Part shown: positions 11,582 to 61,887 of the stretch, piece after piece
Position numbering within the stretch: position 1 is the first letter of the stretch
How the letters are laid out: the number at the start of each line of letters is the position of its first letter
NCBI GenBank assembly: GCA_003220435.1
Contig: QHSL01000059.1
Span: forward strand, 1 to 64,000
Length of the DNA: 64,000 bases
Direction: 5' to 3'
Source of the DNA: Candidatus Rokuibacteriota bacterium
Lineage (GTDB): Bacteria; Methylomirabilota; Methylomirabilia; Rokubacteriales; CSP1-6
The notes under the pieces: generated by a model
Told to the model about the DNA's origin: nothing
The model's database searches: none
The model's input: only the letters and a program-made list of their open reading frames with translations
Program-made: the position numbers and the translations under genes

Positions 11582-11649
11582 GCGGACCGGAGCCGGCTTG
11601 CACCCCTCTCTGGCCACCCTCGGTACAAGCCGGCCTCACGGACCCCGCT
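11582..11649 (-). repeat. Dispersed repeat, degenerate copy
   Basis: This stretch, read on the minus strand, is related to the central part of the element inside the UGSC gene (60798-60864). A 38-base core (11612-11649 against 60798-60835, opposite orientation) differs at only two bases. One inverted end is partly recognisable and the other is missing. It occupies most of the 153-base gap between mlaC and the ArsR gene. Confidence 0.65.
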
Positions 11650-11669
11650 CCAGTGATAGATTTACAAAT

Positions 11670-58552: not shown

Positions 58553-59995
58553 TCATACCCTCTCATCGAAGCGCCGCTGGCGATCTAGCGCCTCACGGTA
58601 GCGCGCATGACGCGCCCGGTCGGGTGTGAACGCCTCGCCCAGCGGCTGGCGGGCGACGTCGAGGTCCGGCAAGGCCCCCAGTGCCTCCAGGGTGAGCAGC
58701 GCGACACCGCGGCTAGTGGCTTCGGGCTCCGACGACCACGTGATGGGGCGCCCGAGGGCGTCGGCCACGATCTGCGTCCAGGCGCGGGAGCGGCCGAGCG
58801 CCCCCCCGGAGGCCACGATCGTGTGATCGCCCGACGCGCAGGGCGCGAGCAATTCGTAGACCATCGCGAGTCGCAGGGCCACGGCCTCGAGGGCGGCCCG
58901 CAAGATCTCGACACCTGTCGTGTCCAGGCGGAGGCCGCGGATCGCCCCCCGCCGCTCACCGCGCCAGCCCGGCGATCGCTCCCCGGCCAGGTGCGGGAGC
59001 ACGGTCAGTCCGTGGCCGTCGGGCTCCAGCGCGGCGAGGGCCGCCTCGAGTTCCTCATCGGGCGCGAGTTTCAGAACTTGGCGACACCAGGCGTAGACGT
59101 TTCCGCCTTCTGAAGTCGCGCCGCCGACCACGGCGCGCCGCTCGTCCACGCGGTAGCGCCAGAGCCCACGCGGCGGCGCCACTGGAGCCCGTGTCACGAC
59201 CCGCATGGCGGCGGAGGTGCCGACGTTGAGCGCAATGCGCGTCGGGTCCACGCAGTCGGAGCCCACATTGCTCGCGGCGCCGTCACCGACGGCCGGGAAC
59301 CAGCTCGCGACTCGCAGCGCGGGCCACCGCGCCGCCCACGGCGCGCGCAGGTCGCGGCGCCGCTCGGCCCGTCCGCTGAGGGGAAAGAGACGCTGCTCAT
59401 CGATCTCGGCCGCGGCCAGCGCTTCGGCGTCCCATCGTCCGGCCGCCTGATCGAAGAGCCCGGTGGCCGACGCCATCGAGAGGCTCGTCGTCGCCTCGCC
59501 GAAGAGCGAGAGCTCGAGAAACTCACCGAAGGAGCCCCACCGCACCGCGCGCCGGGATTCGGCCGGGCGCTCGCGCGAGAGCCACCGGAGCTTGGCGGGC
59601 CAGTACGACGAATGCAGGTGACAACCCGTGCGTCCGTGAAGAGCGTCGTCGTCGAGCGCCGAGCGGAGCAGCTGCGCGTCGCGAGCGCTTCGAGTGTCGG
59701 CCCACATGTAGACGGGCGTGATCGGCCGACCGCTCGCATCGAATCCCAGGAGCCCATGCCAGAAGGTCGTCACGCCGACCGCGCGCGTCTCGCCTGGGGG
59801 TCGATTCGGGTGCACGCCGTCGAGGCACGAGGCGACCGCGTCCAGCAGTCGGGCCGCGTCGTGCTCGACGCCGCCGTCCGGCGTCACCGTGGGTGAGTAG
59901 TGCACCTGGTGCGATCGCCCATGGATCGGACGCCCGCCTTCGTCGTAGAGCGCGGCGCGGGCCGACGAGGTCCCGACGTCGAGCGCGATCACCAC
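58553..59995 (-). CDS. FGGY-family carbohydrate kinase (gluconokinase-like)
   Basis: A 480-residue sugar kinase of the FGGY fold. It has the phosphate-1 motif IALDVGTSSARAALYD at the start, the substrate-binding TFWHGLLGFDASGRPITP, and the adenosine motif IVASGGALGRSRAW. With pgl and zwf downstream, gluconate is the most likely substrate (giving 6-phosphogluconate), but xylulose- or glycerol-like sugars cannot be excluded. The GTG at 59995 begins the protein directly at its first strand; the divergent partner gene starts 18 bp away. Confidence 0.86.
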   Translation of the reverse strand: MVIALDVGTSSARAALYDEGGRPIHGRSHQVHYSPTVTPDGGVEHDAARLLDAVASCLDGVHPNRPPGETRAVGVTTFWHGLLGFDASGRPITPVYMWADTRSARDAQLLRSALDDDALHGRTGCHLHSSYWPAKLRWLSRERPAESRRAVRWGSFGEFLELSLFGEATTSLSMASATGLFDQAAGRWDAEALAAAEIDEQRLFPLSGRAERRRDLRAPWAARWPALRVASWFPAVGDGAASNVGSDCVDPTRIALNVGTSAAMRVVTRAPVAPPRGLWRYRVDERRAVVGGATSEGGNVYAWCRQVLKLAPDEELEAALAALEPDGHGLTVLPHLAGERSPGWRGERRGAIRGLRLDTTGVEILRAALEAVALRLAMVYELLAPCASGDHTIVASGGALGRSRAWTQIVADALGRPITWSSEPEATSRGVALLTLEALGALPDLDVARQPLGEAFTPDRARHARYREALDRQRRFDERV

Positions 59996-60013
59996 TGGAG
60001 TAAGATAGCGCCC
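59996..60013. promoter_or_regulatory. Bidirectional leaderless promoter (sugar kinase / 60014 gene)
   Basis: Again an 18-bp gap. Plus strand: TAAGAT (60001-60006) ends 7 bases before ATG 60014. Minus strand: TATCTT (60007-60002) ends 6 bases before GTG 59995. The overlap and distances are identical to those at 40970-40987. Confidence 0.6.
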
Positions 60014-60232
60014 ATGGCGGACAGCTGGGAAATTCTGACGCTGAGAGGGCTGGCGTCGACCGACGAGCGCGCCGAGCGATTCACGGGCACGCTCGTCATC
60101 CATCGCGAGAGCAGCACGGAGCCGGTGGAGTCCGTCTCGGTGTCGATCAAGCGGACGGTGCTCGCCGAGCTCCACGAGAACCTCGGGCGCCTGCTCGCCC
60201 GATCCACCGGGATCAAACGGAGATCCTCATGA
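60014..60232 (+). CDS. Small protein of unknown function preceding the UGSC gene
   Basis: A 72-residue cytosolic protein beginning MADSWEILTLRG, mainly beta with a C-terminal helix and a basic tail (TGIKRRSS). No family is recognised. It is transcribed from the 18-bp bidirectional promoter and its stop overlaps the ATG of the UGSC selenoprotein gene (ATGA), so the two are translated together and probably work together. Confidence 0.65.
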   Translation: MADSWEILTLRGLASTDERAERFTGTLVIHRESSTEPVESVSVSIKRTVLAELHENLGRLLARSTGIKRRSS

Positions 60233-61887
60233 ACAGGATTCGCGTCCTCAGCCCGATCGGAGTCACGAAGGGTGAGACCCTGAGCGTGCCGCCGCTGCCC
60301 GGATCGCTCGCGGGCCGCACGGTCGGCTTCCTCGACAACACGAAAGCGAATTTCGACCAGCTCGCCGATGAGATCGGTGCGTTCCTACGCGCCGAGCACG
60401 GCGTCAAGGCCGTCATTCGGCGTCGCAAAGCCAATGCCTCGACGCCGGCCGCGCCGGAGATCCTGGCCGGTCTGGCGAAGGATTGCGACGTCGTCTTTGC
60501 CGGGTCGGCTGACTGAGGATCGTGCACGTCGTGGAGTCTCCACGACGCCATCGAGCTGGCGAAGGCGGGCACGCCTGCCGGCGTGATCGGGACGACCGCG
60601 TTCCGGGGGCTCGCGGTGAGCGAGCTCGGCGCCCTCGGCATCACCGGCTTGCCCATGGTCGTCGTCGAGCACCCGCTCGGCGGCGAGCGGAGCGAAGGGA
60701 TATCACGCCGCGCCCGCCAGGCCACCGACCAGCTCACCGCACTGCTGAGCTGCGCGGCGCGTGAGATCGGGCGAACGGAGCCGGCAAGCGCTGTTGTAGC
60801 GGGGTCCGTGAGGCCGGCTTCGACCGAGGGTGGCCTGAGAGAGAGTCTTGCCGGCTCCGTTCGCCCGATCTCACCCGAGACGCTCGAGACATTAGATACC
60901 CCCGACGCGGTGCTCGCCGCCTTCTGCGAGCGCGAATGGTGCGACGGGCTGCCAATCGTGCCGCCGACCGAGGAGCGCGTGCGTGCGATGCTGGGCGGCG
61001 CCCCGGCGGAGCGGCCGCTCGGCGCGATGCCTCCGCTCTGGCGCCAGGCGACGCTCGAGAAGCTCGCCGTCAACGCCGTGATGGCCGGCTGCGAGCCTTC
61101 GTATTTTCCCGTGATCGTGGCCGCGGTGCAGGCGATGCTCGATCCCTCGTTCAACCTCTACGGCGTCCAGGCCACGACGCATCCGGTCGCCCCGCTCCTG
61201 ATCGTGCATGGGCCGGCCGCGCTCGAGCTCGGCGTGCACGCCGGCAGCGGTTGCTTCGGCCCGGGCTTTCGCGCGAACGCGACGATCGGCCGGGCGATCC
61301 GCTTGATCATGCTGAACGTCGGCGGCGCCTGGCCCGGCCGCTACGACATGGCCACCCAGGGGAGCCCCGCGAAGTTTTCGTATTGCATCGCGGAACGCGC
61401 GGACGCGCCGTGGGGACCGCTCTACGCCGACAACGTGGTGACCGTGTTCGGCGGCGAGCCGCCGCACAACGTGAACGACCACGTGTCGACGACCGCCGCC
61501 GGGATCCTCGCGACCGTCGCCGACACCGCCGTGTCGCTTGGCTCGAACGTGGGCTGGTATTTCTCCCTGAGCCAGCTGCTCATCGTGCTCGGCCCCGAAC
61601 ACGCGCGGACCATCGCGGGCGACGGCTTCAGCCGGGCCGACGTCCAGCGGTTCGTCTTCGAGCACGCGCGATTGCCGCTGCGGACGCTGAAGCTCGGCGG
61701 GATGTGGGGCATCCAGGACTGGCCGCGCTGGATGCACGCCGTCACCGACGACGACGCGCTCATGCCGCAAGTGCCGTCGCCGGAGGACGTGCTGATCATC
61801 GTCGCGGGAGGTCCCGGCAAGCACTCGGCGGTGGTGCCGAACTGCACCTTCAGCCGGGCCGTGTCGCGCGCGATCCGGCCGCTGTGA
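60229..61887 (+). CDS. UGSC-family selenoprotein with large C-terminal domain, UGA at 60514
   Basis: One 553-codon gene with an in-frame TGA at 60514-60516 read as Sec96. The codons around it spell FAGSAD-U-GSCTSWSLHDAIELA, exactly the U-G-S-C motif that names this family, followed by TPAGVIGTTAFRGLA and LPMVVVEHPLGG. Residues 1-170 are the UGSC domain. About 38 residues (178-216) are encoded by a repeat element. Residues 217-552 are a second domain (DGLPIVPPTEERVRAML, GSGCFGPGFRANATIGRAIRL, GGPGKHS) that I cannot name. A SECIS-type hairpin follows the UGA. The reaction is unknown; the U-x-x-C geometry suggests redox chemistry. Confidence 0.87.
60527..60547 (+). promoter_or_regulatory. Putative bacterial SECIS hairpin (UGSC gene)
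   Basis: CGTCGTGG (60527-60534) pairs perfectly with CCACGACG (60540-60547). The five-base loop is AGUCU (or GUC if A-U closes), with G near its start, and begins 18 bases after the UGA. The loop closely resembles GGUCU of the E. coli fdhF element. Confidence 0.8.
60761..60874 (+). repeat. 114-bp inverted-repeat element inserted in frame in the UGSC gene
   Basis: The first 28 and last 28 bases are perfect reverse complements. The length is a multiple of three and contains no stop in the gene's frame, so it adds 38 residues between the two protein domains. The central part recurs at 11582-11649. No direct target repeat is obvious at the flanks. This is probably a small non-autonomous mobile element of the host lineage. 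Confidence 0.8.

Follow-up and report, generated by a model that had tools for sequence, protein, structure and literature searches.

Near the end of the window, by which we mean the whole 64,000-nucleotide stretch of DNA that was analysed, a single forward-strand frame (60,229-61,887) encodes 552 residues when the TGA at codon 96 (60,514-60,516, context ADUGSCTSWS) is translated as selenocysteine (U). This is the sole internal TGA of the frame, and translation confirmed what an earlier note on this DNA had read from the letters, namely a TGA within the motif U-G-S-C followed by the same frame for 552 residues in all; the true stop codon, also TGA, lies at 61,885-61,887. Plain gene calling does split the gene, as that note had expected, into a 95-residue ORF (60,229-60,516) and a separate downstream ORF of 434 residues with a GTG start at 60,583. 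Residues 1-174 (60,229-60,750) form the UGSC domain, which matches Pfam PF24696, has a predicted alpha/beta (flavodoxin-like) fold and carries Cys99 three residues beyond Sec96. Residues 175-222 are a fast-evolving linker made mostly of a repeat element, a palindromic genome repeat at 60,758-60,877 (no strand assigned) whose 31-nt arms are 97% complementary. The second domain, dom2, is conserved as the note had thought, but its extent had to be corrected to about residues 223-552 (60,895-61,884, forward strand).

Directly upstream lies a conserved small ORF of 72 residues (60,014-60,232, forward strand), whose stop codon and the UGSC start codon share the letters ATGA, an arrangement that suggests translational coupling. 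A 62-residue stretch 61% identical to it also precedes the UGSC gene, there without overlap, at 1153-1338 of L042, a Candidatus Rokuibacteriota MAG that is the closest named relative among the matches listed; no Pfam match was found in 59,900-60,229. The gene stands alone, with an opposite-strand FGGY kinase, a 6-phosphogluconolactonase-type protein and G6PD on one side and an EamA transporter on the other.

Selenocysteine at codon 96

Residues 6-173 score 159.1 bits against PF24696 (gathering cut-off 25), a match that spans the TGA and places the protein in this family; against NCBIfam NF041046 the score is 123.3 bits, narrowly under the cut-off of 125. The whole first domain, the Sec position and the motif are shared with the UGSC proteins of these two models, which cover the UGSC part only, whereas the window protein has dom2 besides. 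Codon 96 is TGA in all nine genus sequences that span the site (the window and eight others). Relative to three fused genus orthologues, dN/dS was 0.09-0.13 before the TGA, 0.13-0.25 in the UGSC part beyond it, 0.33-0.61 in the linker and 0.08-0.11 in dom2, values that indicate purifying selection on both sides of the TGA.

Bacterial selenoprotein genes combine an in-frame TGA with a following SECIS hairpin that has a G in its apical loop. A SECIS-like stem-loop with a 7-bp stem and a GTC loop starting with G is predicted at 60,529-60,545 on the forward strand. On its own, the window copy folds with an energy that does not stand out (z -0.69), and the SECIS claim therefore rests on a codon test across the family. 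In a fixed register, at least six pairs of the 7-bp stem are formed in 74 of 77 Sec homologues versus two of five Cys homologues, and the loop serine codon is AGT in all 68 homologues with serine there, against a background of 10.4% for serine codons elsewhere in these genes; the loop-codon test treats related sequences as independent, so that its p-value is only indicative. The codon test took 77 of 78 Sec and five of six Cys records, L116 (incomplete) and L068 being left out. The Sec machinery is encoded on a single contig of the genome, C138, with tRNA-Sec at 69.8 bits (above cut-off), SelA at 568 bits and SelB at 351 bits, and the in-frame TGA, the hairpin with a loop G and the machinery are thus found together. 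Homologues that stop at the UGA, which the note had named as a refuting result, were not seen. Altogether, the family match of 159 bits, the TGA in nine of nine sequences, the dN/dS values, the AGT loop codon and the Sec machinery bear out the earlier reading of a UGSC-family selenoprotein with true read-through, and on this comparative evidence the TGA at 60,514 is read as selenocysteine.

The host genome (5.4 Mb, 95.5% complete) contains seven UGSC matches, each with one in-frame TGA; the match on C142 is a fragment close to the contig start. We assembled a set of 88 UGSC copies, each scoring above 100 bits, in which inspection by eye gave TGA at the Sec position in 82 (78 called, plus L068, L095, L106 and L121) and Cys in six (L057, L073, L074, L080, L109, L114). 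The resolving Cys is replaced by Ser in two of the 88 copies (L106, L121) and the motif of L114 is CGTS, so that this residue is not essential everywhere. A Blastococcus UGSC gene (L117:9477-9896) keeps AGT as its loop codon and has TAG at the Sec position, which agrees with the CUA anticodon of a tRNA-Sec that the available text of PMC5330540 mentions along with UGSC-motif selenoproteins.

The fusion and its linker

The UGSC-dom2 fusion is real and is kept within the genus. The alternative, an artefact arising from two genes with a real stop at 60,514 or from an assembly error, draws on the observations that most UGSC-dom2 pairs elsewhere are separate genes, that the L042 pair is unfused and that the linker is a repeat, where assemblies may err. 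However, three full genus orthologues (G051, G048, G050) keep one frame open across the junction with differing linker lengths, and dN/dS stays at 0.08-0.25 beyond the TGA outside the linker. The nine of nine TGA codons, the selection on the loop codon and two paralogues in the same genome (C58 and C144) that are also UGSC-dom2 fusions weigh against it as well, and we consider an artefact highly improbable. The fusion that the earlier note had proposed is therefore genuine. At three other loci of the same genome (C100, C17, C59) the two are unfused, with the dom2 gene upstream of that for UGSC, and on C135 dom2 has no UGSC nearby. The two genes of L042 are also separate and overlap as ATGA (2216-2219), so that little separates the fusion from a translationally coupled pair. 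Separate neighbours of the kind that the note had suggested looking for thus do exist. As a novelty the fusion did not hold up, since a UGSC/Unknown_1 domain fusion was published in 2008 from the Global Ocean Sampling data (PMC2398784, Figure S1A). In the available text of that paper, it too joins UGSC to a conserved domain, such domains as a rule having a conserved Cys, and Unknown_1 is likely dom2.

A 161-nt query around the linker palindrome gave 50 matches in the genome, two of which are its own copy on both strands, and the RNA hairpin of the repeat is predicted at -85 kcal/mol (z -9.9). Matches of the repeat to miRNA families of Rfam lie far under the gathering scores and were set aside as chance matches to a long hairpin. 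Another copy occurs in the window at 11,585-11,652, and at some sites, for example on C103 and C37, the repeat forms short tandem arrays. The repeat as the cause of the fusion is attractive, because the closest named relative, L042, is unfused and the linker is the repeat. The linkers of three orthologues (G048, G050, G051) contain related repeat pieces. Nevertheless, these three are fused with other linker lengths and C58 and C144 are fused with no repeat copy listed there, so that the repeat is at most a candidate cause.

Dom2 as the partner of UGSC

Relatives of dom2 were collected in a scan of genome contigs for which six of its paralogues (alignment A1) served as the query; this gave at least 578 confirmed relatives, of which the loci of the best 80 were kept. 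UGSC is present in 75 of these best 80, and in 71 it is found on the same strand at a distance of at most 500 nt; as the loci were found via dom2, these figures give the chance of UGSC given dom2, a bias that a count by genome does not have. Across 95 genomes of the phylum, UGSC occurs in 72 and dom2 in 71, with both in 71, UGSC only in one, dom2 only in none and neither in 23. Copy numbers in these genomes (461 dom2 and 359 UGSC copies, with up to 12 UGSC per genome) correlate at r = 0.97 between UGSC and dom2 and at r = 0.38 between UGSC and GRDB. The five loci of the best 80 (of at least 578) that have no UGSC are L044, L065, L090, L103 and L120; in L065 dom2 begins at locus base 40, and L044 is on a 4.2-kb contig. 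When neighbours in the same 80 loci were grouped (U, UGSC; D, dom2), 102 units were obtained, namely 59 UD, 19 DU, 11 D, 6 U and 7 others, and 24 pairs, spread over 19 of the 80 loci, lie in a single frame with no stop between. Both gene orders and fusions occur, and UGSC and dom2 are an almost obligate pair in which fusion is one of several arrangements.

Tandem runs of dom2 were seen as well, four copies at L085:7867-12030 and three at L111:3126-6256, with a UGSC gene 2.7-3.9 kb off. Judged by record titles, dom2 is found in MAGs and isolates of many phyla, including groundwater and soil. Bacillus dakarensis (L084) and Natrialba asiatica (L057) also have UGSC-dom2 pairs, the latter a natural Cys form. 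Two MAG records (L083, L121) are titled Bordetella parapertussis; these are probably a mislabelled environmental betaproteobacterium.

Dom2 has about 330 residues, and the alignment of 63 copies (window residue number being alignment position plus 209) shows conserved D239-G240, a near-invariant C288, N350, R355 and E389, as well as a conserved C-terminal motif, VAGG-GKHS. The near-invariant Cys288 is Ala in L116. Profile searches of the second domain that allowed E values of up to 1 found neither a Pfam nor an NCBIfam match, so that the domain gives no direct functional label. The structure of dom2 alone is predicted with a pLDDT of 94. Its PDB profile matches are noise (best E 0.18; 0.6 in another search), and we consider neither the best Foldseek match (two-subunit fumarate hydratase, E 1.1e-3, probability 0.57), nor that to Toblerone-fold cyclic amide hydrolases (0.44), nor the best VIA match (chorismate mutase, Z 5.5, about 92 residues) meaningful; we do not claim a new fold. 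The earlier note had expected the fused domain to give the clue to function. The stronger clue came from the other half of the protein, as the UGSC domain aligns with the catalytic domain of GrdB.

Relation to GrdB and a proposed selenoenzyme

By profile comparison, UGSC is remotely related to the catalytic domain in selenoprotein B of glycine reductase (GrdB). An hhalign comparison of the UGSC profile (88 sequences) with GrdB-like selenoproteins of the same phylum gave a probability of 95.4 (E 2e-8); 94 columns were aligned, a downstream HPLG-like motif among them, and Sec was matched to Sec. As controls, column shuffling of the GrdB alignment reached at most 4.0 in 40 trials and its reversal gave 1.1; masking of the motif columns still gave 79.3. 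Plain HMM searches also matched in both directions (E about 1e-6 to 1e-5, small sets), and UGSC against PrdB alone gave 34.6. None of 20 UGSC members matched PF07355 (GRDB) at E up to 10, whereas the same 20 all matched UGSC, and TIGR01918 did not match the window protein at E up to 1. UGSC is thus a relative of GrdB and not a member of its family, as the Pfam GRDB model does not detect it. If a GrdB/PrdB catalytic-domain superfamily is taken as profile similarity over the Sec domain above that of shuffled alignments, UGSC falls within it.

The model of the fusion (pLDDT 91.7, pTM 0.92, UGSC part mostly above pLDDT 90) predicts for UGSC a five-stranded alpha/beta structure in which Sec starts a helix after a central strand. 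Over residues 26-181 the structural neighbours of this domain are of the Rossmann-like type; since many unrelated chains of that type reach similar scores, GrdB is not singled out by the fold search on its own. Sequence searches of the PDB copy gave nothing credible for UGSC and, with E values of up to 1 allowed, no relative of GrdB itself.

GrdB (PF07355, TIGR01918) and PrdB carry UxxC at the place equivalent to that of UGSC. In contrast to GrdB, UGSC is without the N-terminal part, and its partner is dom2 in place of GrdE/PrdA (PF09338), the pyruvoyl proprotein of glycine and D-proline reductases. At profile level, we rejected dom2 as a GrdE/PrdA relative (GrdE-like profile versus dom2, 0.1) and as the missing N-terminal part of GrdB (dom2 versus GrdB, 0.9), and with no such relation in dom2 a shared mechanism rests on one domain. 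The same genome also encodes a GrdB-like selenoprotein with an in-frame TGA and an adjacent GrdE-like gene (C17:15579-18078, L152), about 8-12 kb from a UGSC-dom2 pair. The best NCBIfam matches of this GrdE-like gene are sarcosine reductase and FarE, both below cut-offs, and the sole PF09338 match in the genome is C17:15579, beside GrdB. GrdA (PF04723) had no match here or in any control genome. Short PrdB-like selenoproteins (L142-L150), common in the phylum, match only the C-terminal part of PF07355.

In the available text of PMC13188914, GrdB/PrdB complexes carry out reductive deamination and ring cleavage. PMC10838667 describes, in the text available, a fluoroacetate operon of Cloacibacillus porcorum with GrdB-complex-like genes, an antiporter and a radical-SAM protein, proposes C-F bond cleavage and mentions no dom2; it offers a precedent for a possible action of GrdB-type proteins on substrates other than amino acids. 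From the homology to GrdB/PrdB, we propose that UGSC-dom2 is a two-domain selenoenzyme for the cleavage of C-X bonds, a reading to which we give even odds and whose joint site, chemistry, reductant and substrates are inferred. In this proposal, UGSC, as a relative of the C-terminal catalytic domain of GrdB and of the D-proline reductase PrdB, would present the Sec96 selenolate at the start of a helix, where Cys99 could close a selenenylsulfide. Dom2 most likely packs on UGSC and forms the substrate-binding half of the site, and would thereby play the role that GrdE/PrdA have in the known reductases, without detectable kinship to them. A small organic substrate would be bound by dom2, the selenolate would attack and reductively cleave its C-X bond, Cys99 would resolve the selenium and a thiol reductant would reset the pair. 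The two copies with Ser for the resolving Cys and the CGTS motif of L114 speak against a strict form of this cycle, and the Ala at position 288 in L116, the heterogeneous neighbour genes and the dom2 copies that have no UGSC close by (L090, L103, L120 and C135) also weigh against the proposal.

UGSC might instead be a general, thioredoxin-like thiol/selenol oxidoreductase that reduces a catalytic thiol of dom2, with dom2 as the actual enzyme. The UxxC motif and the near-invariant Cys288 are compatible with this, as are the excess of dom2 over UGSC in the 95 genomes, the dom2 copies that occur alone or in tandem (L085, L111) and the available text of PMC2398784, which terms UGSC likely thioredoxin-like. 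However, the predicted five-stranded alpha/beta structure has Rossmann-like neighbours among the folds that the search lists, and the best profile relative tested is GrdB. Since, moreover, Cys288 is Ala in L116 and Ser takes the place of the resolving Cys in two copies, we regard this role as rather unlikely.

Once neighbour clusters 0 and 1, which are shadow ORFs, had been left out, the recurrent neighbours across loci were TctC receptors, acyl-CoA dehydrogenases, short-chain dehydrogenases, CoA-transferase III and enoyl-CoA hydratase, together with luciferase-like oxidoreductases, AMP ligases and TPP enzymes. Immediate neighbours are heterogeneous and include ABC solute-binding proteins, a sodium:sulfate-type symporter and an NHL-repeat protein. 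These neighbours point to the catabolism of varied small molecules with no single substrate, and the many paralogues per genome with differing nearby transporters and CoA enzymes suggest different substrates. A detoxification or peroxidase-type redox enzyme would agree with the window gene standing alone beside opposite-strand pentose-phosphate genes (G6PD, 6PGL) and with the antioxidant role of many UxxC Sec proteins given in the available text of PMC13188914. Such a function is nonetheless improbable, as the catabolic genes recur (TctC receptors, CoA-transferase III, acyl-CoA dehydrogenase, enoyl-CoA hydratase, luciferase-like oxidoreductases) and up to 12 UGSC copies per genome fit many substrates better than a single role in defence.

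UGSC accounts for 8.2% of selenoprotein genes and is among the most abundant in ocean metagenomes according to the available text of PMC9402790, and the review texts available (e.g., PMC13188914) assign it no function. We found no statement of a UGSC-GrdB kinship in the available text of PMC2398784, PMC13188914, PMC9312934, PMC9402790, PMC5330540 and PMC10838667, a search that covered open literature. What is new here is that profile comparison ties UGSC to the GrdB catalytic domain, whereas the literature label is thioredoxin-like.

The window gene encodes a true selenoprotein fusion that belongs to a known family. Useful additions are the pairing and the relation to GrdB, and the chemistry is offered as a hypothesis. 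Standard gene calling cuts UGSC-dom2 enzymes at the TGA, a practical annotation error. Naming dom2 as the almost obligate partner tells what needs to be co-expressed for activity, and with the link to GrdB/PrdB the vague "Trx-like redox" label gives way to a specific and testable chemistry. Some of the host lineages are usually held to be aerobic. It is tempting to speculate, if with somewhat less confidence than for the enzyme itself, that the family evolved separately as a second branch of the glycine-reductase superfamily, in which the selenol domain of GrdB was re-paired with a new substrate-binding protein whose fold is unrecognised and, as up to a dozen paralogues per genome, may reductively cleave many small organic compounds in soil, groundwater and marine bacteria.
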